The notes under the pieces: model-generated
What the model was told of the DNA's origin: nothing
What the model saw: the letters and a program-made list of their open reading frames with translations, nothing else
Database searches by the model: none
Shown here: positions 177 to 29,279 of the stretch, piece after piece
Numbering within the stretch: the stretch's first letter is position 1
Layout of the letters: each line of letters begins with the position of its first letter
Made by a program: the position numbers and the translations under genes
Origin: an uncultured Flavobacteriales bacterium
Lineage (GTDB): Bacteria; Bacteroidota; Bacteroidia; Flavobacteriales; Flavobacteriaceae
Length of the DNA stretch: 33,726 bases
Reading direction: 5' to 3'
NCBI GenBank assembly: GCA_913063255.1
Contig: CAJXYJ010000012.1
Span: 1 to 33,726, forward strand

Positions 177-1841
177 CTATTCCTTCGGAAAATAATATTT
201 ATTATTTGGAAATCCTTCCCGTAATTGCAGTTCGCATTCTTTTTCTAAAGTTGGATCTATTTTAAGAATTATACTCCCATTAGTATTTGGTTTTAAAACT
301 GTGTTTTCTCCAATTACAATTCTATTTTTTGCGGTAAGATTTAAAGTTGCGTCATTTGTAAATTTTTGATTCTGAATGACAACTTTTTTTGAAAGGGCTG
401 TTAATTTAAAATCCCATCTAGAGAAGCTTTGATTTTGAATAATCGCAGTATCTGTTTCGGTCATTAATTTGTAAACCATTTCGACAGCATTTCCAGCATT
501 AATCATTCCTGCTCCATAATAGCCTTCCCATGGTTTGTTGGCTTTTATATGATCGATATTTACAGCACTTAATTTAATAATAGCATCTACCTCATCAAAG
601 TTTAAACATGGCTGAAGAGAAAGCATTAAGCCAACGGTACCTGAAATTAAAGGTGCTATACCAGAAGTAGCACCATATTCACTAAATTTAATTTTATTAT
701 TTATTTTATATTGCCCATATCGAACCAAACCAACGCCTGGACCAAGAATGTCTACATCTGAATTCAAAGTCCGAATAGAAATAGGGTGAATAAATGGCTC
801 CCCTAAGGTGTCATTTTCTTTAAAGCCCAAAGTTCTACCTAAATATCCTCTAATATTTAACGCAAAATAGTTCCCATTATCTTCTTCTATATCAATATAA
901 TCTAAAACAGTTTCATATCGATGCATTACCGTTGCCACAGATATAACTTTATCATAAGAAGCTGGGTAATATCTTAATTCACCTTTGTTCTCAGTTTTAA
1001 TCCATTTTTTATTATGAGCACTAGCAACAATTATGGTTCCATTATCTATCATTTCATAAATTGCGTCTTGAGCAGTTTGGTAATATTTTGTTGTCCCCCA
1101 ACTACAGTTTATTACATCTGCACCTGCTTTTGACATTTCCATCAAATTACTTAACGTTTTCGTTTTCCCATAAGAAGAACCATAAATACTGCAATCGTAA
1201 CAAACACCTGTAAAACCAAATCCATTATCTCCTTGTCCGGCAGCTGTTGCAGCTATAGAGTATCCATGTCCCTTAGCTAAGCGTGAATAATTAAATAGTT
1301 TTGTTTTATTTTTAAACTCCGTATTTGTAGAATCGATTCCTCCATCAGAAATTCCAATAGTAATGTCTTTAGAACCTGTAGTATAGTACCATGCCTTTGG
1401 CAGTCCCATGACATCGAGATAATCTAGATTTGTTTTCCAAGCTATATTTTCACCAATCGTACTTGTGTTTCCATAATCATTGGGTTCGAATATTTTTTTA
1501 TCATCCTCATCAATAATTTCACCAAACTCGAACAAATGTGCTGTTTTAGTAAGGAGATCTTTTACTATTTCTTCTTTATTGGAGACTACAAAAAATGTTT
1601 TTTTTAAGTTCTTTTTATTGGCATTTCTGAAAGTCTTCTTAAATTCATAAATTGTATACTGATCTAAAACAGATTTTAATTTTAAATCATCACCAATATA
1701 AACTAATACATCATCTACTCTTTCAAACTTAGGCTCTATAAGCGTATCGTTTGCACGAAGATAAAACCAGCTATATTCTTGTGAGAATACTGAAGAAAAG
1801 CTTGTAATAAAACATAGTAACACAAAATAGAAGTACCTCAC
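177..1841 (-). CDS. Secreted S8 (subtilisin-like) serine protease
   Basis: This is a 554-residue protein with a signal peptide (residues 1-20, cleavage probably before QEYSW). The subtilase triad can be placed in order: Asp166 in GISDGGID, His192 in GHGYSIAATAAG and Ser393 in GATSGIAP, with the oxyanion Asn277 in ASAHN. The contexts are divergent: the usual HGTHVAG is GHGYSIA and GTSMAAP is ATSGIAP, but every catalytic residue is present. A pre-domain fills about residues 21-140. The last 90 residues are rich in short beta strands (TLNLTAKNRIVIGENTVL) and resemble the stacked-beta stalks at the C-terminus of many Bacteroidetes secreted proteins. I see no ordinary type IX sorting tail. Likely an outer-surface or secreted protease; the substrate is unknown. 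Confidence 0.85.
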   Translation of the reverse strand: MRYFYFVLLCFITSFSSVFSQEYSWFYLRANDTLIEPKFERVDDVLVYIGDDLKLKSVLDQYTIYEFKKTFRNANKKNLKKTFFVVSNKEEIVKDLLTKTAHLFEFGEIIDEDDKKIFEPNDYGNTSTIGENIAWKTNLDYLDVMGLPKAWYYTTGSKDITIGISDGGIDSTNTEFKNKTKLFNYSRLAKGHGYSIAATAAGQGDNGFGFTGVCYDCSIYGSSYGKTKTLSNLMEMSKAGADVINCSWGTTKYYQTAQDAIYEMIDNGTIIVASAHNKKWIKTENKGELRYYPASYDKVISVATVMHRYETVLDYIDIEEDNGNYFALNIRGYLGRTLGFKENDTLGEPFIHPISIRTLNSDVDILGPGVGLVRYGQYKINNKIKFSEYGATSGIAPLISGTVGLMLSLQPCLNFDEVDAIIKLSAVNIDHIKANKPWEGYYGAGMINAGNAVEMVYKLMTETDTAIIQNQSFSRWDFKLTALSKKVVIQNQKFTNDATLNLTAKNRIVIGENTVLKPNTNGSIILKIDPTLEKECELQLREGFPNNKYYFPKE

Positions 1842-1920
1842 AGGATAGTAATTATTTTTTCAAGATAATTAATTTTATATAAAAAGGATAATTGGTTTTA
1901 AAAAACTTTAAAATCTGTTT

Positions 1921-1938
1921 CTAATTTATCTAAATTAG
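1921..1938. promoter_or_regulatory. Perfect 8-bp inverted repeat before the first glycosyltransferase
   Basis: CTAATTTA at 1921-1928 and TAAATTAG at 1931-1938 are exact reverse complements with a 2-base spacer. They lie nine bases before the ATG at 1948. A transcription factor site overlapping the start of transcription is one reading. AT-rich DNA gives such palindromes by chance, so this is a weak call. Confidence 0.25.
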
Positions 1939-1947
1939 CACTTATTT

Positions 1948-2841
1948 ATGCTTTCAATTTTAATTCCTTCATATAATTATAATATTGTAAACTTGGTCAA
2001 TCAAGTTTATAGACAAGTAACTGATGCCAATATTTTATTTGAAATAATAGTTGCTGATGATTGTTCTACTAACAAAAAATTCATCGAAGAAAACAAGAAT
2101 ATTGAAAAGTTAGAATTTTGTAGATTAATTAGAAATAATGAAAATATTGGGAGAACAGCTACTAGAAACCTCCTAGCTAATAAAGCAACATACAATCTGT
2201 TATTATTTTTAGATGCCGATGTATTACCAAAATATAACGACTTTATATCTAGGTTTAACCTCTCAGAAAATAATAATTTTCAAGTTATTTATGGCGGAGT
2301 AAGTTATTATAAAGAAAAGCCAGAAGACAATAAGATTTTACGTTGGAAATATGGAAAAGAAAGAGAAGCTAAAAGCGTAAAACAAAGATTAAAGGAGCCC
2401 TATTTTATCATATCTCAAAATTTATTGATTAAAAAAGATATTTTTTTACAAATGAATTTTATGAATACAAATACCTACGGCTTAGACATTTTATTTTCTA
2501 ACAATCTAAAAACTAACAATATTTTAGTAACTCATATAGACAACCCAGTTTATCATTTAGGCTTGGAAGAAAATAATATTTTTATAAAAAAATCATTAGA
2601 AGCTGTAAAAACAACAATTCAATTAGAAGATAAAGGATCAATCTCTAATGATTTACGACCCCTACAAAAAAGTTATTTAAGTCTTAAAAAGAAAAGATTA
2701 ACGTTTCTTTTTAGTTTTTTTATTTCGATATTTATAAAAATTATGGAGCGAAATTTCAATTCTAAAAATCCAAATTTATTTTGGTTTGATTTATACCGTC
2801 TGAACTACTATATTGAATTAAAGTCTAAAAAAAGTGTCTAA
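1948..2841 (+). CDS. Family 2 glycosyltransferase
   Basis: This 297-residue protein has a GT-A fold N-terminus: LSILIPSYNYN at the start, the nucleotide-sugar Asp pair in ADDCS (37-40) and the metal-binding DAD at 89-91 (LLFLDADVLP). The C-terminal third is basic and has one hydrophobic stretch near 250-267 (FLFSFFISIFIKIM), probably a membrane anchor. It should transfer a sugar from a nucleotide donor to a lipid-linked glycan on the cytoplasmic face; donor and acceptor cannot be read from sequence. The gene overlaps the next by 8 bases, which indicates co-transcription and probably translational coupling. It begins the polysaccharide locus and is visibly very AT-rich, as is usual for exchanged surface-glycan genes. 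Confidence 0.85.
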   Translation: MLSILIPSYNYNIVNLVNQVYRQVTDANILFEIIVADDCSTNKKFIEENKNIEKLEFCRLIRNNENIGRTATRNLLANKATYNLLLFLDADVLPKYNDFISRFNLSENNNFQVIYGGVSYYKEKPEDNKILRWKYGKEREAKSVKQRLKEPYFIISQNLLIKKDIFLQMNFMNTNTYGLDILFSNNLKTNNILVTHIDNPVYHLGLEENNIFIKKSLEAVKTTIQLEDKGSISNDLRPLQKSYLSLKKKRLTFLFSFFISIFIKIMERNFNSKNPNLFWFDLYRLNYYIELKSKKSV

Positions 2842-3781
2842 ATTATCTATAATAATACCCCTTTACAATAAGGAAAAAGACATCAAAAAAACACTGACTA
2901 GTGTAATAGATCAGTCTTTTAAAGATTTTGAAATTATTATTATAGATGATGGCTCTACAGATTCGAGCGAGGAAGTGGTAAAATCTGTAAACGATCAACG
3001 TATTTTATTATATTCAAAAAAAAACGAAGGGGTTTCAAAAACCAGAAACTTTGGAGTTGAAAAAGCAACTACTAATTTTATAGTATTCTTAGACGCTGAT
3101 GACTATTGGCACCCTTTTCATTTAGATAATTTAAATTCTTTAATAACAAAATTCCCAAATCAATCATGGTATGCTGTTGCCTATGAGAAAAAAAGAAATG
3201 AAAAATTAACTGTACCAATGAATTCACCTATCATGAAATTGGGGGAATCTTGGCAAGGAGAAATTAGCAACTTTTTTGAAAATAGTTTAATCGATTGTCT
3301 TGCATGGACTTCAGCAGTATGCATGACAAAAGATTTTTTTAAATCGCTAAACGGTTTTGATATTGCTATAACTCATGGAGCAGGAGAAGATACTGACCTT
3401 TGGCTTAGAGCAGCTTTACAAGCTCCATTAGCCTTTTCTAATTTAGTTTCTGCTAGACATAATTTAGATGGAAGTAATAGAATTTCAAACACTCCTACAC
3501 TAAAAAGAAATTATATGAATCTAGAAAAATATGAAAAAGATGCCTTACTAGATCCTTATCTTAAAAAATACTTAGACTTGAATAGGTATTCATTTGCAAT
3601 TCAGCATAAACTAGCAAATGATAAAATCTCTTTTAAAAGATATTTAAAAAATATAGATTCAAAAAACCTTAATAAAAAACAACACTTTTTATTAAAACAA
3701 AATAAAACAACATTACGGTTATTAATTAATTTTCAGGCATTTATTGAGAAAAATGGCTTTAGATTAAGTTCTTTTAAATAA
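2834..3781 (+). CDS. Family 2 glycosyltransferase (GTG start)
   Basis: This 315-residue GT-A enzyme carries LSIIIPLYNKE at the N-terminus, IDDGSTDSS at 37-45, the DADD metal site at 87-90 and the acidic EDTDLWLR (185-192), which fits the catalytic-base region of GT2 enzymes. The start codon is GTG at 2834, inside the last codons of the preceding glycosyltransferase (8-base overlap). No later start keeps the N-terminal strand IIIPLYN. No membrane segment is evident, so it probably works at the cytoplasmic face with its neighbour. Its 3' end overlaps the convergent ketoisomerase gene by 18 bases. Donor and linkage are unknown. Confidence 0.85.
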   Translation: MSKLSIIIPLYNKEKDIKKTLTSVIDQSFKDFEIIIIDDGSTDSSEEVVKSVNDQRILLYSKKNEGVSKTRNFGVEKATTNFIVFLDADDYWHPFHLDNLNSLITKFPNQSWYAVAYEKKRNEKLTVPMNSPIMKLGESWQGEISNFFENSLIDCLAWTSAVCMTKDFFKSLNGFDIAITHGAGEDTDLWLRAALQAPLAFSNLVSARHNLDGSNRISNTPTLKRNYMNLEKYEKDALLDPYLKKYLDLNRYSFAIQHKLANDKISFKRYLKNIDSKNLNKKQHFLLKQNKTTLRLLINFQAFIEKNGFRLSSFK

Positions 3782-4180
3782 TACAAAATCACTATATTTT
3801 CTTATATAATCTTCTTCATCATACTCTTCATTTACTAAAGACAAACAAACGGTTCCTGCAGAAAAATTTTCTAATTCTCTCCAAACTCCATTAGGGATTA
3901 AAAGCCCTTTATTGGGTCTATTTAAGGTAATTATTCTTCTTTTCATACCATCATCTAAAACAACATCAAAACTGCCACTTAATGCTATTAAAAACTGTTG
4001 TAATTCTTTATGTGCATGCCCTCCTCTAGTAGAATCACTAGGGACATCGTATAAGTAATAAACTCTCTTTATTTTAAAAGGCAAAAAATCTTTTTCTATA
4101 ACAGAAAGATTACCACGGCCGTCAGGGTCAGATATTTTTGGAATATCAATAAGTTGAATGTTTTCGATTAAATAACTCAT
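3764..4180 (-). CDS. fdtA: dTDP-4-keto-6-deoxyhexose 3,4-ketoisomerase (FdtA/QdtA-type cupin)
   Basis: This 138-residue single-domain cupin matches the sugar 3,4-ketoisomerase family in length and landmarks: DGRGNLSVIE near residue 20, the YYLYDVP strand at 41-47, then TRGGHAHKELQQ with His55 and His57, the family's active-site histidines. FdtA/QdtA convert dTDP-4-keto-6-deoxyglucose to the 3-keto isomer, the substrate of a PLP aminotransferase. A fitting DegT-family aminotransferase lies at 7758-8858. The start ATG overlaps the stop of the upstream GT4 gene by one base (TAATG), so the two form an operon. FdtA and QdtA differ in C4 stereochemistry (galacto or gluco product), and I cannot tell which this is. 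Confidence 0.85.
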   Translation of the reverse strand: MSYLIENIQLIDIPKISDPDGRGNLSVIEKDFLPFKIKRVYYLYDVPSDSTRGGHAHKELQQFLIALSGSFDVVLDDGMKRRIITLNRPNKGLLIPNGVWRELENFSAGTVCLSLVNEEYDEEDYIRKYSDFVLFKRT

Positions 4181-5274
4181 TATAATTTTAAATCAATTAA
4201 CAATTGTTTCCACTCTTCCTTTATCACTTGAACTTCTAGGTGTAGCACAGACTTTTTTGCGTTTTCTTTACAATTTTGATATAAAGGTTGGTCAAATATA
4301 AAACTATTCATAGCTTCTGAAAGCGCATTTTTATCGAAATTTTCAACTAACAAGCCATTAACTTCATTTTTAATAACTTCTTTTGGACCCGACTTACAAT
4401 CTACTGAGATTACTGGAACTCCTAATGATAACGTTTCTGGAATCACCATTGGAAACCCTTCAAACCTACTGCTTAAAACCATAAATCTTGCGTTTTTAAC
4501 AAAGGGGTAAGGATTTGCAATAAAGCCCTTAAAAACTATATGGTTTTCCAATTTCAGATCTTTAGAATACTGAACTATAGCATCATAATCAGGACCATTA
4601 CCCAATATCAACAATTTTACGCCCTCTTTAGAAAGTTTAGAAAGCTTATAAGAATCAAGTAACAGTTTTAAATTTTTATGCTCATCATCTATTCTTCCAT
4701 AAAAGATGATAAAATCATTTTCTAAAGCTACACCCTCTAAAGCTTTATTGTTTATTTCATCAAAATCAAATCCATTATAAATAGTTCGAATATCCTTTAA
4801 TTTAAACTTTTTTCTAAATTTTTTAGTTGCAGCTTTAGAAACTGCAGTCATTACTTTGTCCTTATATAAAATTTTATTTAACCATGTGTATTTTGTAAAT
4901 ACCTTAGAAGTTTTATAATTGTGCAGTACATATATCGTTGGTATAGTATAAATAAACTTCGTTATTAAAAATTCTCTATACGCTTGGATTCTTGACCTGT
5001 TATCAATTATAATATCAAATTTGTTAGCAATTAGATATTTCTTAAATATTAGAAGCCTGTTAACTCTACTTAAAAAACTATCCTTACTATCTTTTAACGC
5101 TCCTAAATTAAAATGCACCCCAGAAAAAGGATATGCAACACCCGACAAAACAGTAACTATATGTATATCATGGCCAATATCACTAAGCATTTGAGAAAGA
5201 AGAGCACTAGATCGTTCTGCCCCCCCTTTTGCTAATGATGAAGCAACGATGCAGATTTTTAATCTTTTACTCAT
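4180..5274 (-). CDS. Family 4 glycosyltransferase
   Basis: This 364-residue GT-B enzyme has the N-terminal GGAERS loop (17-22) typical of retaining GT4 enzymes. The C-terminal nucleotide-binding half includes the E-x7-E motif in FEGFPMVIPE (Glu272 and Glu280), followed by SLGVPVIS and a GPKEVI loop. It should be a cytoplasmic or peripheral enzyme adding one sugar to the repeat unit. It is the first gene of a two-gene minus-strand operon with the ketoisomerase, sharing one base with it. A TATATTTG box lies 47-54 bases upstream of the start. Confidence 0.88.
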   Translation of the reverse strand: MSKRLKICIVASSLAKGGAERSSALLSQMLSDIGHDIHIVTVLSGVAYPFSGVHFNLGALKDSKDSFLSRVNRLLIFKKYLIANKFDIIIDNRSRIQAYREFLITKFIYTIPTIYVLHNYKTSKVFTKYTWLNKILYKDKVMTAVSKAATKKFRKKFKLKDIRTIYNGFDFDEINNKALEGVALENDFIIFYGRIDDEHKNLKLLLDSYKLSKLSKEGVKLLILGNGPDYDAIVQYSKDLKLENHIVFKGFIANPYPFVKNARFMVLSSRFEGFPMVIPETLSLGVPVISVDCKSGPKEVIKNEVNGLLVENFDKNALSEAMNSFIFDQPLYQNCKENAKKSVLHLEVQVIKEEWKQLLIDLKL

Positions 5275-5298
5275 ATAAATCGAATCATTATTAAATGG

Positions 5299-5306
5299 TA
5301 TTTTTG
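5299..5306 (+). promoter_or_regulatory. Candidate -7 box (TAnnTTTG) for the gene at 5335
   Basis: TATTTTTG fits the Bacteroidetes -7 consensus TAnnTTTG and sits 28 bases upstream of the ATG at 5335. A clear TTG -33 element at the expected distance is not present. Confidence 0.45.
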
Positions 5307-5320
5307 AAAATAATAAAAAC

Positions 5321-5328
5321 CAAATATA
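5321..5328 (-). promoter_or_regulatory. Candidate -7 box (TAnnTTTG) for the gene at 4180-5274
   Basis: The minus strand reads TATATTTG here, an exact TAnnTTTG match, 46 bases before the GT4 start at 5274. It faces the plus-strand box at 5299-5306, so the two predicted initiation points fall within a few bases of each other. Confidence 0.45.
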
Positions 5329-5334
5329 GTTAAT

Positions 5335-6471
5335 ATGAATATACTCTTAGTAGGAGAATATAGTAGATTACATAATTCATTAAAGGAAGGGCTTGAGGTT
5401 TTGGGCCATCAGGTATGTATTATTTCTACAGGAGATTATTTTAAAAATTACCCTGCCGACATTAAACTTATTAGAAAATTTGATAAGGGTTTTCAAAAAA
5501 AAATAAAAGTAGGTCTCTATAAACTTTTTAAGATCGATATCACTTCTATTTCTCTTAAAAATCAATTTTTAAAAAATAAAGCAAAATTAAAGAACTTTGA
5601 TGTTGTTCAGTTAATAAACGAAAGTCCACTAGGTATTCTCCCAAAACATGAAGAACAAATTATTACCTTCCTAAAAAAAAACAATAAGAGGTTATTTTTG
5701 TTATCCTGTGGCGCTGACTATACAAGTGTAAAATATGCCTTCGACAAAAAACCAAGGTATTCAATATTGGATCCATTATTTAACAAAAAATCTAATGAAA
5801 AAAACTTTTATGCTGCCCTAAAATATCTAAATCCAGACTTTAAAAGCCTTCACGAATTTGTTTACAAGAATATTGAAGGAGTAATTGCTTCCGATTTAGA
5901 TTATCATATACCACTAGTAAGACATCCTAAATATTTAGGAATGATACCAAATCCAATTAATTTAGAAAAATTAGAATATCAAGAGTCAAAAGTTAAAGGT
6001 AAAATCATTATTTTTCTTGGAATAAACAGATCCAACTTTTTAAAAAAGGGGGGAGATTATTTTGAAAATGCTTTGCAAATAATTAAAGAAAAATACCCTG
6101 ATAAAGTACAAATTGAAATCGCAGAAAACCTTCCTTATGAAAAATATATAACCGTTTATAACAACGCACACATTGTTTTAGATCAAGTTTTAAGTTACGA
6201 TCAGGGCTATAATGCCTTGGAGGCTATGGCCAAAGGAAAAGTAGTATTTACGGGAATTGAAAAAGAAGTTATTTCGTATTATAAATTAAACAATATTGTA
6301 GCTATTAATGCAATCCCAGATGTAAGTAATATTGTAGAAAATTTAGAGAAACTCATCCTCGATCCAGAACAAATTTCTGAAATTGGAAAAAACGCACGTG
6401 TGTTTGTAGAACAAGAACACGAATATATTAGGATCGCTCAAAAATATTTAGATTTCTGGAGAAATACTTAA
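5335..6471 (+). CDS. GT-B type glycosyltransferase (family 4-like)
   Basis: This 378-residue protein begins MNILLVGEYSRLH, a Rossmann-like strand and loop. Its C-terminal half resembles GT4 enzymes: a GxNR-like loop (FLGINRSNF), LDQVLSYDQGYNALEAMAKGK as the donor-binding helix region, and a final helix after DPEQISEIGKNAR. The EALAxGxPV motif is present in the variant form LEAMAKGKVV. No membrane segments are visible. It is a single plus-strand gene between two minus-strand operons; its 3' end overlaps the flippase gene by 4 bases. It is less canonical than the GT4 at 4180-5274, and the substrate is unknown. Confidence 0.75.
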   Translation: MNILLVGEYSRLHNSLKEGLEVLGHQVCIISTGDYFKNYPADIKLIRKFDKGFQKKIKVGLYKLFKIDITSISLKNQFLKNKAKLKNFDVVQLINESPLGILPKHEEQIITFLKKNNKRLFLLSCGADYTSVKYAFDKKPRYSILDPLFNKKSNEKNFYAALKYLNPDFKSLHEFVYKNIEGVIASDLDYHIPLVRHPKYLGMIPNPINLEKLEYQESKVKGKIIIFLGINRSNFLKKGGDYFENALQIIKEKYPDKVQIEIAENLPYEKYITVYNNAHIVLDQVLSYDQGYNALEAMAKGKVVFTGIEKEVISYYKLNNIVAINAIPDVSNIVENLEKLILDPEQISEIGKNARVFVEQEHEYIRIAQKYLDFWRNT

Positions 6472-7757
6472 TCTATTTTAGGATTCTTATTTTTAAAATA
6501 TCTAAAAACTAAAAACATTACCACAAAAAAGTAAACTATATATCTAAAAAAGTGAGCCATAACGACTCCTTCTATCCCATAATCTCTTGTTAAGTAATTT
6601 GCTAATCCATAAAAGAGCACTAAGGATATTATTTCTGAAAAAATAAAATTCCGAACCATCTTCTTCGCTAAAAATTGATGTGCTAAAACTAAGGAAGCTA
6701 ATTTAATGAAGTCCCCAAGTAACTGCCATTTAAATAATGGCCCCATACCTGTAAACCCAGGGTAAATAAGATCCACTAGCAAATCCCGAAAAAGATAAAC
6801 TACCAGCATACCAAGACCAAATAGCGGTAATAATGTTTTATAGATTGTAATTAATTCAGTTATAAATCCATTACGACTATGTATTCCTGCAAATTTTGGT
6901 AAAACATAAAGAGTGAAAATAGACCCTGAAAAGACCATATAGTTTTTAGAAATAAAAGTCATTGCTGTCCATATACCTGCATCTTGTTCGGTTAATTTAT
7001 TTGCTAACATCGAACGAATATCGATCTCAACATAATTTAATAGAACTGTAGAAACAAAAGACATTAATGAAAATGCCAATAAGCTTTTTGCAAGAGGCGT
7101 TGTAAATGTTAATTTAGAAAACTGAACATACTCTCTTAAGATCTTTATAAAAAGAAACATCATCACTATAACTTGTACTATTGGTGTAATAGCAATTGCA
7201 ACTAATGCTCCGTTTAAGTTATATTGAAATAAAAATATTACCGTTAATGTAGCGCTAATCAAATAACTTGCTAACTCTATTTTAACAAATTTTTTATACA
7301 GAGATAGACCGTTAACAACTCCATAAAAAACACGCTGAATTGCAATAAAAGGAACGACCACTGCAATTAACCTTACAAGATATATATATTCTATCGACCC
7401 AAATACATATTCACTTAAAAGTGGTGCAAATAAAATTAATGTAAGGGCAGTAAAAACTGTACCTATTACTGTAAATACAAGCGTGGTTGAAAACAGTTTT
7501 TGTAATTGATCTTTATCTTCTTTATGTTCTGAGACATACTTAACAATACCATTAAAAACACCTAAAGAAGTAATTGAAGTTAGTATTTGAGAAACACTAC
7601 GTAATTGGCCAATTTTATATATTCCAACCTCACCCACCATTTCAGCTAATAATCTTTGTATAAAAAAAGAAACGGCTAGTCTAATACTTATAACTACTGC
7701 ATTTAAAGAAGTCATCTTTAGCAGTAAGTTTTCTCGTATAAATCCTGGAATCTTCAA
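6468..7757 (-). CDS. wzx: WzxE-like lipid-linked oligosaccharide flippase
   Basis: This 429-residue polytopic protein has about 12 hydrophobic segments, as in the MOP/PST exporter superfamily. It aligns with E. coli WzxE from memory at several points: the N-terminal helix with GVFNGIVKYVSEH (WzxE GIFNGVTKYVAQY), IWTAMTFISKNYMVFSGSIFTLYVLPKFA in the middle, and FKWQLLGDFIKLASLVLAHQFLAK near 340. WzxE flips undecaprenyl-PP-linked repeat units across the inner membrane. The start at 7757 directly abuts the aminotransferase stop at 7758, so the two are translated together. The order acyltransferase, aminotransferase, flippase equals wecD-wecE-wzxE of enterobacterial common antigen. Confidence 0.88.
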   Translation of the reverse strand: MKIPGFIRENLLLKMTSLNAVVISIRLAVSFFIQRLLAEMVGEVGIYKIGQLRSVSQILTSITSLGVFNGIVKYVSEHKEDKDQLQKLFSTTLVFTVIGTVFTALTLILFAPLLSEYVFGSIEYIYLVRLIAVVVPFIAIQRVFYGVVNGLSLYKKFVKIELASYLISATLTVIFLFQYNLNGALVAIAITPIVQVIVMMFLFIKILREYVQFSKLTFTTPLAKSLLAFSLMSFVSTVLLNYVEIDIRSMLANKLTEQDAGIWTAMTFISKNYMVFSGSIFTLYVLPKFAGIHSRNGFITELITIYKTLLPLFGLGMLVVYLFRDLLVDLIYPGFTGMGPLFKWQLLGDFIKLASLVLAHQFLAKKMVRNFIFSEIISLVLFYGLANYLTRDYGIEGVVMAHFFRYIVYFFVVMFLVFRYFKNKNPKID

Positions 7758-8858
7758 TTAATATGCATTTAAAACTGAAATCACTTTAAAAACCTCATCA
7801 TCTGTAAGCATTGGACTCATAGGAACACTAACCACATTTTTATGTATTTTTTCAGTAATTGGAAATTTCATTTCCTGAAATTCTAATAATGCTTTTTGAT
7901 GGTGTGGGGGAATTGGATAATGAATTAAAAAACCTATTCCATTTTTTTCAAGGAATGCTGAAAAGTCTTCTCTGTTTTCGACTCTTACCACATATAAATG
8001 AAACACATGATTTTCACTTCCGTCATATTTTGGAAGTGTTATTTTTTTATTTTTAATCTTAGAAAGGTACTTTTTGGCAATCGCTCTTCTTTTTGAATTA
8101 TCCTCATTTAATAGTGGAAGTTTCTTTCTTAAAAAAGTCGCCTGAATTTCATCAAGACGAGAATTAAAACCTAATTCATCATTTACATATTTTGAAGAAG
8201 TTCCATAATTTCTAAGTTTTTTAATTATAGAAGCCAACTCTTTATTATTGGTGGTTATAGCACCAGCATCTCCCAAGGCACCCAAATTTTTTGTTGGGTA
8301 GAAACTAAACCCTGCGGCATCTCCTAAACATCCAGCTTTATTTCCATTTGCATCTTTTGCTCCATGTGCTTGAGCTGCATCTTCAATTACCAAAAGATGG
8401 TGTTTATCTGCAATTTTTAAAATTTCATCCATTGGAGAAAGTTGTCCATATAAATGAACGGGCATAATCGCTTTAGATTTTGATGTAATCGCCGACTCCA
8501 AATGCTGATAGCTAAAATTATAAGTATCTATATTAGCTTCTACTAAAACTGGAGTTAATCCCGCCTGTTTAATTGCCAATATAGTTGCTATATAAGTGTT
8601 TGAAGCCACTAACACCTCATCTCCAGCAGAAAGTAAGCCTAAGGATTTATATCCTTCAATTATTAATCGTAGGGCGTCTAAACCATTCCCAACACCTATA
8701 CAATACTTTGTTCCACAAAATTTTGCGTAATCTTTTTCAAAAGCAGTAACATTTTCTCCAAGAATATAATATCCAGAATCTAAAAATCCTTTAAAACTAT
8801 TCTGAAATACTGTTTCAAAACGTTTGTTAATTTTGTGAAGATCTAGAAAAGGAATCAT
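7758..8858 (-). CDS. DegT/DnrJ/EryC1 PLP-dependent sugar aminotransferase (FdtB/QdtB-like)
   Basis: This 366-residue protein is full length for the family. The PLP lysine is Lys190 in [16 protein letters not shown], and the ring-stacking region is [10 protein letters not shown] (158-167). The GNGLDALRL phosphate loop lies near 58-66. The [13 protein letters not shown] form is that of enzymes aminating C3 of dTDP-3-keto-6-deoxyhexoses (FdtB, QdtB, DesV type) rather than WecE. This agrees with the ketoisomerase at 3764-4180, which would supply the 3-keto substrate. Its ATG overlaps the acyltransferase stop by 4 bases (8855-8858). The likely product is a dTDP-3-amino-3,6-dideoxyhexose; the exact sugar is an inference. 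Confidence 0.87.
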
Positions 8859-9787
8859 AAGAAAACTGAATCTAATTTTGAATATTTAGTAGTCTCAATG
8901 GTATAAAATTGATGTGAAATTCCGCGTGCACCAAAACATTCTTTCCAATATAATAAACCATCGTTCATCTGCTTTCCATTATTTACATTTGAAATACCAA
9001 AATCAAAATACCGCTTACCTTTATATCTTTCAGTAATAAGGTAATGAAATAAAAAATCTAAACTTCCTAATTGTTGTTTTTGAGCATTCGCCGAAATGTA
9101 TTGAACATGTACTAGATGTTCCGTTTCGAATATGGTTGCCCCCGCAACAATCATTTCCTCCTTATATACAGAAAATTGAATAATGTTTTGGGGAAAGTTT
9201 TTAGCCAGTTTTTCAATTTCATCTAAACTATGAACGGGTGTTGCATCATGTTGTGCTTTCAAGTTTGGAATTAATATATCATTCCAAAAAGGAGTAAAAT
9301 TTGCATCTTCTTTAATGGTTAAACCTAGTTTTTTAGCTTTCTTAACACCTTCCATTCTATTTGATTGAATCTTGATTGGATTTCCCAAATCAATAGTACT
9401 GGAAAGGTCTGTTCTTGTTAATCTTGCATCGGTTAAAAAAAGTAAATAATCTATTTCATCTGCTGGCATAATGTGATAGATTTTTGGCATAACATTTAAA
9501 TGAAATCTCTGTATTTTATGTGATGCTAAATAGTTTAGTATCGATTTAAACGACTCTAAACTTTCTTTAAATTTTATTTTTTTTGAAAACAGTAAACCTC
9601 CATAAGAAAGTCCTTGATGAGACACAACTTCGTTTTCTTTTTTATTAAGTGGCAACAAGGCAATAAGCTTATCGTTTTTATAAACTAATAATGAGTAATC
9701 TTCAAAACGATTGCTGTGATAATCCATAAAATTTCTATGAAACAAAAACGTAGCATTTTTAGATTCGGCTACAAAATTATTCCACAA
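8855..9787 (-). CDS. FemAB/GNAT-like acyltransferase, probably N-acylating the amino sugar
   Basis: This protein has at least 310 residues and a double-GNAT (FemAB-like) arrangement: an N-terminal half with [20 protein letters not shown] and a C-terminal half with [24 protein letters not shown] and YFDFGISN. It sits first in the operon before the aminotransferase and flippase, the place of WecD in the E. coli common-antigen cluster, so transfer of an acetyl or other acyl group to dTDP-3-amino-sugar is the best guess. The start is odd. The only canonical codon in frame is TTG at 9787, but the frame stays open to a stop at 9845-9847, and the upstream residues [19 protein letters not shown] look like the true first strand and helix. 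Translation may start at an ATT (9826 or 9829). The function is inferred from context. Confidence 0.72.
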
Positions 9788-9973
9788 AACGTTATCTTCT
9801 TTCCTGTATTTCTTTACTTGGTAAATAATAGTGCCTTTTAAATTTTATTAAACATTTTTTTTATTTGCTAATTTAGAGTTTTTCATAGACAACAGTTCCA
9901 TCATTAACAATTACCTTCCTGCACCCTTAGTAAATGGTTTCTCTAATTTTATTCCCTTACTTTTTTAAATAGT
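9788..9973. other. Spacer with a possible gene remnant
   Basis: There is no complete gene. In the minus strand from about 9943 down to 9885 the frame reads GCRKVIVNDGTVVYEKL followed by a stop, with another stop just before it. This 17-residue tail has a protein-like composition and could be the end of a lost gene; I cannot name the family. The segment nearest 9787 probably belongs to the N-terminus of the acyltransferase. Confidence 0.25.
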
Positions 9974-10873
9974 CTATAATGATTTCAACAACTTACTAAG
10001 CTTTTCAGCTCCATCCTTATTCAAATGATCTGCATCAAAAAAATCTTTCTTAGTAAACAAATCATCTTCCAATAAGTTGTAATAACTACAGTTTGAGTAA
10101 TTATTAGCTACCTCATTACCTGTTGCTATCATGATATTTAATTGATTTAAATCTAAATTATCGCGATAACTATCATACGCAGGGGGTGTAAACAATAGTA
10201 CTTCAATGTTTTTTTCTTTACAAATTTGAATTATTCTATTTAATAATTGCAAGTTCTCCTCATATAAAAATTTATCTTCAATTGTATGTTTATGAGCTGA
10301 TATTTTACCGGATTTTTCAATGTCAAAATCAAAATCATGCTTTTTTAGTAGCCCCCAACCTTTCTCTGTGCAATTAACTAAATCTTCATCATTTATATAA
10401 TAATCATATATTATGTCTATATTATTTTTGAGTTTTACGCTTAATAATTCGGAATAATATTTTACATTTTTATGAATAGGAATGTTATAATAAATAGTAT
10501 AATTTTTCAACCTCCAGTCTTCATCAGTAAACTCAAGCTTCTCGAAAAGAGATGTGTACGAAAGCCTTATAATTATTTTTTTTAGCTTAGGGATTTTTTC
10601 AATGTAATTACTTAAAAGTTGATAATCCAAATCCAGCGTCTGTGAAACATGACTAAGATTAAAGGTTTCTTCTTTAAAAAACTTGGGATTTACCCCATAT
10701 AAAGTATGCGAACTCCCTAAAATTAACACCTCTATATCTTCAAGGCTATTTTCTATTTTCTCATGCTTGTATTTAAAACTATTAGGTACATTTCTAACTA
10801 ATAGTTCGACAACTACTCCCATTATAATTACAGGAATCAAAAAAAATAAAACCTTTTTTAAATATGTGTTCAC
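9974..10873 (-). CDS. SGNH-hydrolase-like membrane-anchored protein, partner of the MBOAT
   Basis: This 299-residue protein has one N-terminal membrane anchor (residues 7-25, VLFFLIPVIIMGVVVELLV) and a periplasmic domain. ILGSSHTLYG (51-60) is in the position of the SGNH block I serine, and DADHLNKDGA (280-289) is the C-terminal block with Asp280 and His283. The overall plan resembles AlgJ/AlgX, PatB and DltD-like partners of MBOAT acyltransferases. In such pairs the membrane protein passes an acyl group across the membrane and the SGNH protein transfers it to the glycan. The gene starts 4 bases after the MBOAT stop, so it is the second gene of a two-gene operon. The esterase or transferase direction is inferred. 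Confidence 0.72.
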   Translation of the reverse strand: MNTYLKKVLFFLIPVIIMGVVVELLVRNVPNSFKYKHEKIENSLEDIEVLILGSSHTLYGVNPKFFKEETFNLSHVSQTLDLDYQLLSNYIEKIPKLKKIIIRLSYTSLFEKLEFTDEDWRLKNYTIYYNIPIHKNVKYYSELLSVKLKNNIDIIYDYYINDEDLVNCTEKGWGLLKKHDFDFDIEKSGKISAHKHTIEDKFLYEENLQLLNRIIQICKEKNIEVLLFTPPAYDSYRDNLDLNQLNIMIATGNEVANNYSNCSYYNLLEDDLFTKKDFFDADHLNKDGAEKLSKLLKSL

Positions 10874-28007: not shown

Positions 28008-28405
28008 GGGGCCGACTGGTTTTGACAGCGGGTCTAATTGTAAGGTAAGCATGTCGAGCGCTGGGATACAGCTCGTAAATATCATATTTCACACTTTTTA
28101 AACGGCGAGAATAACTACGCCCTAGCTGCATAATCCGAATTATAGTAGGATAATGCCTCGGCCCGCAAGGCGGGCAAGCAGGAAGTTTCTCAAGAGCCTT
28201 GGTTTATGGCAATTGATCTAGAGACTTCGTAAATATAAACCTAGCTAGTATAGTGCTTTGATGTACTTGCGAAACTCAAATTAAAGATAAGCCATGCGTT
28301 GGTAGTTTTCAACCGGTAATTGGACGAAAATTTAAATGAAAACTAAACATGAAGAAAGCTTTATAATTGCACGTTTGGACGGGAGTTCGAATCTCCCCGG
28401 CTCCA
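28008..28405 (+). ncRNA. ssrA: Transfer-messenger RNA (tmRNA)
   Basis: This is a one-piece tmRNA of about 398 nt that rescues stalled ribosomes with SmpB. The 5' end GGGGCCGACTGGTTTTGACA pairs with the 3' end (CCGGCTCC), forming the acceptor stem 28008-28014/28398-28404 with discriminator A28405. The T-arm is GGGAGTTCGAATCTCCC. The tag reading frame 28104-28133 encodes GENNYALAA and ends in TAA, the flavobacterial type. The bases after the discriminator are CGA, not CCA, so the CCA end must be added by tRNA nucleotidyltransferase. Pseudoknot-like GC segments follow the tag (CTCGGCCCGCAAGGCGGGC). Confidence 0.96.
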
Positions 28406-28408
28406 CGA
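28390..28408 (+). repeat. tmRNA 3' tail repeat, copy 1 (in ssrA)
   Basis: AATCTCCCCGGCTCCACGA is the last part of the T-arm and acceptor strand of ssrA. The same 19 bases occur exactly at 28547-28565 and in a 15-of-17 form at 28718-28734. It is a plausible core attachment site, since the tmRNA 3' end is a common integrase target. Confidence 0.8.
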
Positions 28409-28440
28409 ACACTCACAACTGAGTTGTGGATGAAAAAAAT

Positions 28441-28480
28441 AAAACCCATCAAGTTTACTTGAATGGGTTTTGTTGTTTTT
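28441..28480 (+). terminator. Terminator of ssrA
   Basis: Arms 28441-28454 and 28457-28471 (AAAACCCAT-CAAGT / ACTTGAATGGGTTTT) pair with one bulged base around a TT loop. They are followed by TGTTGTTTTT. Confidence 0.85.
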
Positions 28481-28546
28481 AGACATCTGGCTTTAAAAGA
28501 CAGGCTGTTGTAATTGCAAATCTGGAACAAATAAGATCTTTTTAAA

Positions 28547-28565
28547 AATCTCCCCGGCTCCACGA
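28547..28565 (+). repeat. tmRNA 3' tail repeat, copy 2 (duplicate outside ssrA)
   Basis: This is an exact 19-base duplicate of the ssrA 3' tail, 157 bases downstream; the following CACTCA also matches with one base missing. Upstream, TTGTAATTGCAAATCTGGA resembles the ssrA bases TTATAATTGCACGTTTGGA, so the copy includes a decayed piece of the preceding tmRNA body. It has no partner 5' acceptor strand. Confidence 0.75.
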
Positions 28566-28573
28566 CACTCAAG

Positions 28574-28605
28574 AAACCACGCCAAAAATGGTGTGGTTTT
28601 TTTAT
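28574..28605 (+). terminator. Terminator after tmRNA-tail copy 2
   Basis: AAACCACGCC (28574-28583) pairs with GGTGTGGTTT (28590-28599) with one G-T pair, followed by a T-run. It stands at a similar distance after copy 2 as the ssrA terminator after copy 1. Confidence 0.8.
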
Positions 28606-28717
28606 TTTATGGAAAAACTGAGCTTGCTCAACGTTTTGGAGTAAAATGAAAAAAACGCAGTGTAGACTGTGGGATTTCTTATTTGCAAATTTAAAGCCTC
28701 TGGAGATCAACATAAGT

Positions 28718-28734
28718 AATCTCCCCGTTTCCAC
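28718..28734 (+). repeat. tmRNA 3' tail repeat, copy 3 (degenerate)
   Basis: AATCTCCCCGTTTCCAC matches the ssrA tail at 15 of 17 positions, 171 bases after copy 2. TTTGCAAAT and CTCTGGA upstream echo the sequence before copy 2. It is followed by a hairpin terminator. Confidence 0.6.
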
Positions 28735-28740
28735 TTTAAA

Positions 28741-28781
28741 AAAAGGGAAGCAAAAATTAGTGTAATTTTTGCTTCCCTTTT
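28741..28781. terminator. Bidirectional terminator (19-bp perfect stem)
   Basis: Arms 28741-28759 and 28763-28781 are exact reverse complements with a GTG loop, flanked by A-runs and T-runs. It lies 30 bases after the stop of the Spy/CpxP-like gene (minus strand) and ends any plus-strand transcript from the ssrA side. Confidence 0.88.
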
Positions 28782-28811
28782 GTAATAAAATTCTTCTAAA
28801 AGAAGATTTTT

Positions 28812-29279
28812 TTAATCTTCAATAATCATTGGAACTTGTGCAGCTATATTAGCAGCAACCATTGCTTCAATTTTATTTTCTGCTTGGAAATATTTTGCTG
28901 CTTTGGCTGCAGGTAATATTTTTTTGAATTTTTTATAGTATGCCTTCTCAAGTTTAAGAGATGCTGTCTTAAAGTCCATTACTTGATTCCAAAGAACATC
29001 TGCTTTTTCATCAGTTAATATACCATATTCTTTTGCATATTCCTTAATTGCATTAATTCTTATATTTTGAACTTTTGATAATTCAAAGTCATATTCATTA
29101 TAAAGCTCCCAAAATGGTGCAGACTCTGCTTCAGTTAATTCCATTACTTCAGCAATAACTGCTTTTTTCTCAGTTTTTAAAACTGACCGAACTACCTCGA
29201 TATAATCATTTTCTGTTTGTGCGAAAAGACTTATAGAAATCAAACATAAGAATAAGGTAATAATAGTTTTTTTCATCAT
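28812..29279 (-). CDS. Small periplasmic helical protein (Spy/CpxP-like)
   Basis: This 155-residue protein has a signal peptide (1-21, ending LFAQ) and an almost entirely helical, charged mature part. ELTEAESAPFWELYNEYDFEL, GILTDEKADVLWNQVMDF and KKILPAAKAAKYFQAENKI follow the pattern of LTxxQ/Spy-like proteins, in which the last motif contains Pro and Phe-Gln before an acidic residue. Such proteins bind unfolded proteins or metals in the periplasm. Assignment to Spy/CpxP is by pattern, so another helical family is possible. The gene is single, with a promoter-like TATATTTG at 29313-29320 and a strong terminator downstream. Confidence 0.65.
   Translation of the reverse strand: MMKKTIITLFLCLISISLFAQTENDYIEVVRSVLKTEKKAVIAEVMELTEAESAPFWELYNEYDFELSKVQNIRINAIKEYAKEYGILTDEKADVLWNQVMDFKTASLKLEKAYYKKFKKILPAAKAAKYFQAENKIEAMVAANIAAQVPMIIED

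Follow-up and report, generated by a model that had tools for sequence, protein, structure and literature searches.

Behind the tmRNA gene (ssrA) of an uncultured Flavobacteriaceae bacterium lie two short, folded units without genes, and each of them closes with a copy of the 3′ tail of that gene. Because related bodies stand behind ssrA, tRNA-Ser, and tRNA-Ala, with the matching tail in each case, these units appear to be tiny site-specific elements of a widespread kind that has been overlooked. The reading that we favor, and consider reasonably probable, is that they are non-autonomous mini-elements, inserted site specifically, that function as cassettes and use a putative recombinase in trans. 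A recombinase so supplied, probably of the tyrosine type, would insert a unit at the 3′ end of the gene, with a T-arm-like hairpin (P5) and the tail serving as attachment site. Each insertion would keep the 3′ end of the gene complete, bring a terminator, and push older tails outward, and the displaced tails would decay.

The ssrA locus and its units

The window (the whole stretch of DNA analyzed, 33,726 nucleotides, contig CAJXYJ010000012.1 of GenBank assembly GCA_913063255.1) carries an ssrA gene that encodes the tag GENNYALAA and ends in the tail AATCTCCCCGGCTCCAC. As a first-pass annotation of this DNA had claimed, the 19-mer closing ssrA (AATCTCCCCGGCTCCACGA, at 28390) recurs exactly at 28547, and a third copy (28718 to 28734) matches the ssrA tail at 15 of 17 positions, giving tail-to-tail spacings of 157 and 171 bp. 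The search of the organism's own genome that had been proposed alongside was run with up to 2 mismatches allowed, and the 19-mer had no other site in the whole 2.93-Mb assembly. Each unit starts where the gene, or the tail before it, ends. Features of the locus are listed below in order of position.

28008..28408, + strand: ssrA, host gene (tmRNA) and source of the copied 3′ tail (ARAGORN, 28008-28406; Rfam RF00023, 28008-28408, 133.6 bits)
28390..28406, + strand: tail copy 1, within ssrA (3′ strand of the T-stem plus acceptor)
28407..28563, + strand: type B unit of 157 bp (unit 1), running from the 3′ end of ssrA through tail copy 2 (covariance model R1, seed covariation)
28415..28511, + strand: closed domain of unit 1, P1 (28415-28422 with 28504-28511) around P3 and P4
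28441..28471, + strand: distal hairpin of unit 1 P3, apex CAAG-TTTA-CTTG, with a T-rich stretch after it (inverted repeat I2, fold, covariation)
28512..28526, + strand: conserved box AATTGCAAATCTGGA, between P1 and P5 (alignments A1 and A2)
28534..28551, + strand: unit 1 P5 hairpin, with the first bases of the tail as its 3′ arm
28547..28563, + strand: tail copy 2, exact
28564..28734, + strand: type A unit of 171 bp (unit 2), running through tail copy 3 (R1 match, type A covariation)
28571..28680, + strand: four-way junction of unit 2 (minimum-energy fold, z −4.55; covariation; terminator call at 28571-28602)
28571-28576 with 28675-28680, + strand: unit 2 P1
28577-28597, + strand: unit 2 P2, terminator-like
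28604-28647, + strand: unit 2 P3, apex TGAG-CTTG-CTCA
28656-28671, + strand: unit 2 P4
28702..28724, + strand: unit 2 P5 hairpin, GGAGAT...ATCTCC (covariation, fold)
28718..28734, + strand: tail copy 3, decayed (2 of 17 positions changed)
28741..28781, + strand: perfect 19-bp hairpin after the last tail (inverted repeat I1)

Covariance model R1 represents type B and was built from 12 seed sequences, unit 1 among them; it scores 143.5 bits at exactly 28407-28563. Built without type A, the model nonetheless finds unit 2 at 28580-28734 (44.1 bits; E value, 5.8e-8). No genes occur within units, which are ~125 to 180 bp long.

A terminator of its own had been assigned to each tail copy. A hairpin does follow each copy (28433-28479, 28571-28602, and 28741-28781), but the terminator scan, a simple one, calls the middle hairpin alone and makes no call on the unit 1 P3 hairpin (28441-28471), which is likely the ssrA terminator. 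The hairpin at 28741-28781 is probably the original ssrA terminator. The first-pass annotation had also seen traces of the tmRNA body before the tails; the shared TTGCA...TGGA is real and belongs to a stretch conserved among units, but unit bodies as wholes align with the 3′ part of ssrA no better than shuffles do, and local duplication of ssrA was rejected on this ground as the origin of the units.

The alternative named at first pass, a simple tandem duplication in which the ssrA 3′ end was copied and then decayed, would account for the near-regular spacing of the tails and for the near-identical tandem units of one array (L046). It fails at the window locus, where units 1 and 2 are of different types and are not alike end to end (65 of 207 aligned columns identical; z, 2.4). 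The ssrA 3′ body beyond the tail is missing from the units, and related bodies lie behind other genes; we therefore give duplication very little credence as the source of the units. As the process behind later changes in copy number, tandem duplication is likely.

Fixed length and conserved fold

A total of 144 distinct ssrA loci were surveyed, chosen regardless of repeats and drawn from genomes of the same genus, from other relatives, and, for many Flavobacteriaceae genera, from a single genome each. The gene's own tail recurred within 3 kb downstream at 13 loci, and the first copy lay at 153 to 173 bp in 12 of these; later copies lay at 328 to 330 bp, and one lone copy lay at 1053 bp. The other 131 loci had no second tail. 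Shuffled tails predict 0.05 hits over the 144 loci, and 15 were observed, so chance is excluded as the source of the copies.

The first-pass annotation had explained the ladder by large elements that integrated and were later lost, each tail being the right end of a deleted element. Islands with tyrosine integrases do insert here and leave worn tails (genome G007, locus L313; the ~4.4-kb blocks of genome G164, described below), but the residues of deleted islands should vary in length, and the near-fixed length of first copies across many genera argues against such scars. Their residue would also have to carry a conserved, covarying fold, whereas real island junctions lack the junction and P5, and several hold a T-loop part. 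The scar ladder was rejected on fixed length and fold, and we rate it as highly improbable; near-fixed length, conserved fold, and relatives at several genes indicate instead that the 157- and 171-bp stretches were themselves inserted. The broader idea, that 3′ ends were displaced by insertion behind ssrA, is upheld as likely, the most distal copy being the most eroded.

In type B units, P1 encloses a long P3 (apex AAG-YTTR-CTT) and a short P4 and is followed by a conserved ATTTGCA..TGGA box and then by P5, in which the 3′ arm doubles as the first part of the tail. Type A units add the terminator-like P2, which yields a four-way junction, the minimum-energy fold of unit 2. Many units begin with terminator-like hairpins. 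Covariation was scored in two unfitted alignments (A2, unit 1 with 11 type B relatives; A1, unit 2 with 11 type A relatives) and in one fitted to the covariance model (A3, 109 distinct R1 matches). It exceeded the controls in all three, as in a structured RNA family, reaching 0.463 in A2 (0.212 shuffled, at most 0.132 with slid partners), 0.301 in A1 (0.168 shuffled), and 0.465 in A3 (0.149 shuffled, at most 0.091 slid); double changes were found in 43 of the 44 pairs of A3.

The wobble pairs point to the strand on which the fold matters. Within P1 to P4, G-U outnumbers A-C by 156 to 26 in A3 and by 22 to 5 in the unfitted A2, and since G-U is tolerated far above A-C, selection would act on the sense strand; we infer that the P1-P4 domain acts as RNA or as sense-strand single-stranded DNA. 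In P5 the two are even (G-U, 35; A-C, 33), and P5 may be a DNA-level site. The P5 loop is 10 to 17 nt long versus 7 nt in a T-loop, so the core site differs from an ordinary T-loop core, which counts against our preferred reading. The match of the P5 arm to the tail is drawn from pair counts and from a comparison of two units (L329 and L143, below); an alignment-free test of P5 arm against tail was too blunt (4.72 versus 4.29 and 5.4 versus 5.0).

With R1, units were detected in 90 of the 249 Flavobacteriaceae genomes (E value, ≤0.001); chance may account for some of the weakest matches, which are partial. R1 matches few genomes in a phylum-wide sample in which one genus dominates, so the model is type-specific. 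No known Rfam family covers the flavobacterial units. At two Bacteroidota ssrA loci (L107 and L160), one full unit of ~170 bp is followed by miniature units of 86 to 88 bp, which seem to retain P1, a short hairpin, P5, and the tail without P2 and P3 and are perhaps the minimal unit.

Strong RNA-like covariation with a preference for G-U, together with the terminator-like hairpins that open many units, is what one would expect of functional RNA modules (terminator or 3′ processing domains of ssrA and tRNA transcripts) that were locally duplicated and selected and whose tails were homogenized by gene conversion. This is the main rival to the mini-element reading, and it can also claim the clustering of target genes on the body tree, the near-identical tandem copies in genome G412 (both below), and the filing of the RtT family as a cis-regulatory RNA in Rfam. 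We nevertheless think it rather unlikely, because it leaves unexplained the full tail copy in each unit, the missing second tail at those 131 tmRNA loci, and the related bodies behind ssrA, tRNA-Ser, and tRNA-Ala in which tail and P5 arm are exchanged jointly.

A retroelement-like origin would have a structured RNA, its 3′ tail homologous to the target, reverse transcribed into a nicked tRNA or tmRNA gene end, target primed as in non-autonomous relatives of R2. The conserved sense-strand fold with its RNA-like wobble agrees with this, as do tail identity exactly at the 3′ end and the lack of coding capacity, and such copying would be expected to leave the very anatomy observed. We regard it as improbable, given that no reverse transcriptase or nicking enzyme was found linked to the units, that terminators inside the units would block a full-length RNA from the gene promoter, and that no 5′-truncated copies, the hallmark of such elements, were noticed, the short forms (86 and 126 bp) being those without internal parts.

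Target genes, arrays, and islands

Strong R1 matches adjoin the 3′ end of a tRNA or tmRNA gene or an older tail. The genes that bear units are ssrA, tRNA-Ser (tail AATCCCTCTTYCTCCGC), tRNA-Ala (ACTCCGGTATTCTCCAC), and a second tRNA-Ala (AATCTCATCTTCTCCAC). Units lie directly behind tRNA-Ser at L300, L310, L322, L324, L325, and L330, behind tRNA-Ala at L317, L323, and (within 1 nt) L321, and behind the second tRNA-Ala at L329, and every one of them has the tail of its own gene, or a worn copy of it, at its end. The L329 unit (tRNA-Ala, genome G164) and an ssrA unit from another flavobacterium (L143:213-372) are identical at 88 of 102 positions in their first ~100 nt (86%). Their inner P5 is identical, and the outer P5 arm (ATGAGA versus AGAGA) and the tail have been replaced jointly. 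G164 itself has a third close copy of this body, in its ssrA ladder (84 of 105 positions).

Such exchanges appear to be infrequent. A poorly resolved tree of unit bodies needs 10 target-gene changes versus 16.6 with shuffled labels, and its well-supported branches force just 3 changes for ssrA; given this clustering, switching between target genes is supported but rare.

Three further tRNA loci were noted. In the window genome (contig C19), a folded unit behind tRNA-Ser has an eroded tail and is followed by a partial second unit (L365). A different unit type (AAAAGAAACCCGCAAC...GGGATCACG...AATCCC) stands behind tRNA-Ser in many flavobacterial genera (L350 to L358), where the usual tRNA-Ser terminator seems to be a unit. 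At L318 (G271:C11), the 3′ part of a tRNA-Ala, from the anticodon-loop region on, precedes a unit without a complete gene; it probably represents the right boundary of an element using an anticodon-loop site.

A clean insertion is seen behind tRNA-Ser, where genome G138 has the gene, a 126-bp unit, and then AAAAGAAACCCGCAACGA..., and genome G142 has the gene and then AAAAGAAACCCGCAACGA... directly. What lies downstream belongs in its turn to an older type of unit, so the pair shows the precise gain or loss of one unit and no virgin site; most of the "empty" tRNA-Ser sites likewise hold an older unit type. Unit number differs within one genus (one in G252, three near-identical units in G412). 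Arrays run B-A in the window and in G005, A and then another type in L029 and L047, and B-B-B in L046. The first tail is nearer to the gene tail than the last one is in 6 of the 7 arrays in which the two differ unequally and farther from it in 1. Genome G318 has two tmRNA genes (contigs C37 and C59) and an assembly listed at 6% contamination and is probably a mixed bin.

The 3′ ends of tRNA and tmRNA genes are favored landing sites of genomic islands. The first-pass statement that integrases target the ssrA 3′ end was borne out in the same-genus genome G007, in which an island with a Phage_integrase/Phage_int_SAM_5 protein lies directly before an old B unit; the tyrosine integrase, whose gene ends this island at the ssrA tail, occupies 3070-4398 of L313 (G007:C19:1-7500). 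In genome G209, a unit lies ~66 kb downstream of ssrA. Several island junctions retain a T-loop part (AGTTCGA...), and the unit junction and P5 are missing there, so units and islands appear to be distinct things at one address.

In G164 (L312, G164:C1:285000-300000, ~1131-10251), units behind ssrA alternate with two ~4.4-kb blocks, with a unit at each boundary. The blocks hold host-like genes (a collagen-like/T9SS pair; a TonB-dependent receptor), each end in a worn ssrA-like tail, and contain no recognized integrase; they look like cargo-carrying cassettes in the ladder.

No recombinase linked to the units was found near the window locus. Carriage by phages or plasmids was rejected: 18 viral contigs match the two-tail pattern, all of them through tRNA arrays, coding repeats, or chance and none with a unit, no plasmid matched a unit, and phages gave one trivial 38-bp match. 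For a tyrosine recombinase, circles of 86 to 180 bp would be remarkably small, and this also counts against the mini-element reading.

Wider occurrence and comparison with known systems

When 85,000 species genomes were scanned for pairs of tails 149 to 179 bp apart, at least 120 stretches fitted the pattern. Among the matches listed, structured units that close with a tail follow ssrA in Bacteroidota, Clostridia, and Proteobacteria, tail copies occur downstream of tRNA-Ala, and some matches are merely two tRNA genes; later copies in these listed matches, for which spacing was unconstrained, lie at 152 to 173 bp, with short forms at 86 to 88 bp and one at 319 bp.

The unit family probably includes the tyrT repeats of Escherichia coli, for which we know of no explanation since their discovery. 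At E. coli tyrT/tyrV, 178-bp tandem units end in the exact last 19 bases of tRNA-Tyr, and the unit is covered by Rfam RtT (RF00391, rttR). These are, like the units here (157 and 171 bp), structured tandem units behind a tRNA or tmRNA gene that end in its tail, and the 5′ half of that tail has an inverted mate inside the E. coli unit (GGGGAAGGAT...ATCCTTCCCC). Unlike the flavobacterial P5, which is local and stands beside a separate closed domain, the E. coli mate spans several hairpins. Positions 28380-28830 of the window gave no match to the RtT covariance model up to an E value of 10, and nucleotide similarity between the E. coli unit and the other units was not significant. The sole ssrA unit to match RtT, from Aestuariibacter halophilus (Alteromonadales; L152:482-627), does so over its full length and below the cut-off (30.3 bits, cut-off 45; E value, 0.048 across all families). 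RtT-like sequences have been reported within BIMEs in Enterobacteria (PMC2965389).

We propose, tentatively, a cross-phylum class of gene-less, retargetable mobile elements, the tyrT repeats included, whose folded 3′ end would imitate the T-arm of the host gene and copy its tail and which either a recombinase that reads structure or reverse transcription would move in trans. The literature searched, which lay mostly outside subscription journals, contained no account of such a class. The class would give the tyrT repeats a family, with origin and function testable in a laboratory strain. As cassettes, its members would bear on the evolution of attachment sites and on the annotation of islands and prophages, since several attachment sites would stand in one place; structured cassettes at island landing sites would also bear on termination and processing of ssrA and tRNAs.

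Of the known systems, integron cassettes share with the units a polar order in which small modules line up at a single primary site. The arms at the unit end pair, and the P5 arms resemble the R″/R′ boxes of integrons in their logic. Unlike integron attC sites, the unit tail AATCTCCCCGGCTCCAC has no GTTRRRY core, and its arms pair as P5; moreover, the units carry no genes, are linked to no integron integrase, and have as their primary site the end of a tRNA or tmRNA gene, matched over 17 nt. The units are like CIMEs in that copies of tRNA or tmRNA 3′ ends flank them, they have no integrase of their own, and they could move in trans and accrete in tandem. They differ from CIMEs and island scars in their near-fixed length (~125 to 180 bp, where variable remnants would be expected), conserved fold, and different junctions. 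With REP and BIME sequences they share short, structured, non-coding bodies that are presumably moved in trans; unlike these, the units are confined, as far as seen, to the 3′ ends of genes and carry the tail of the gene.
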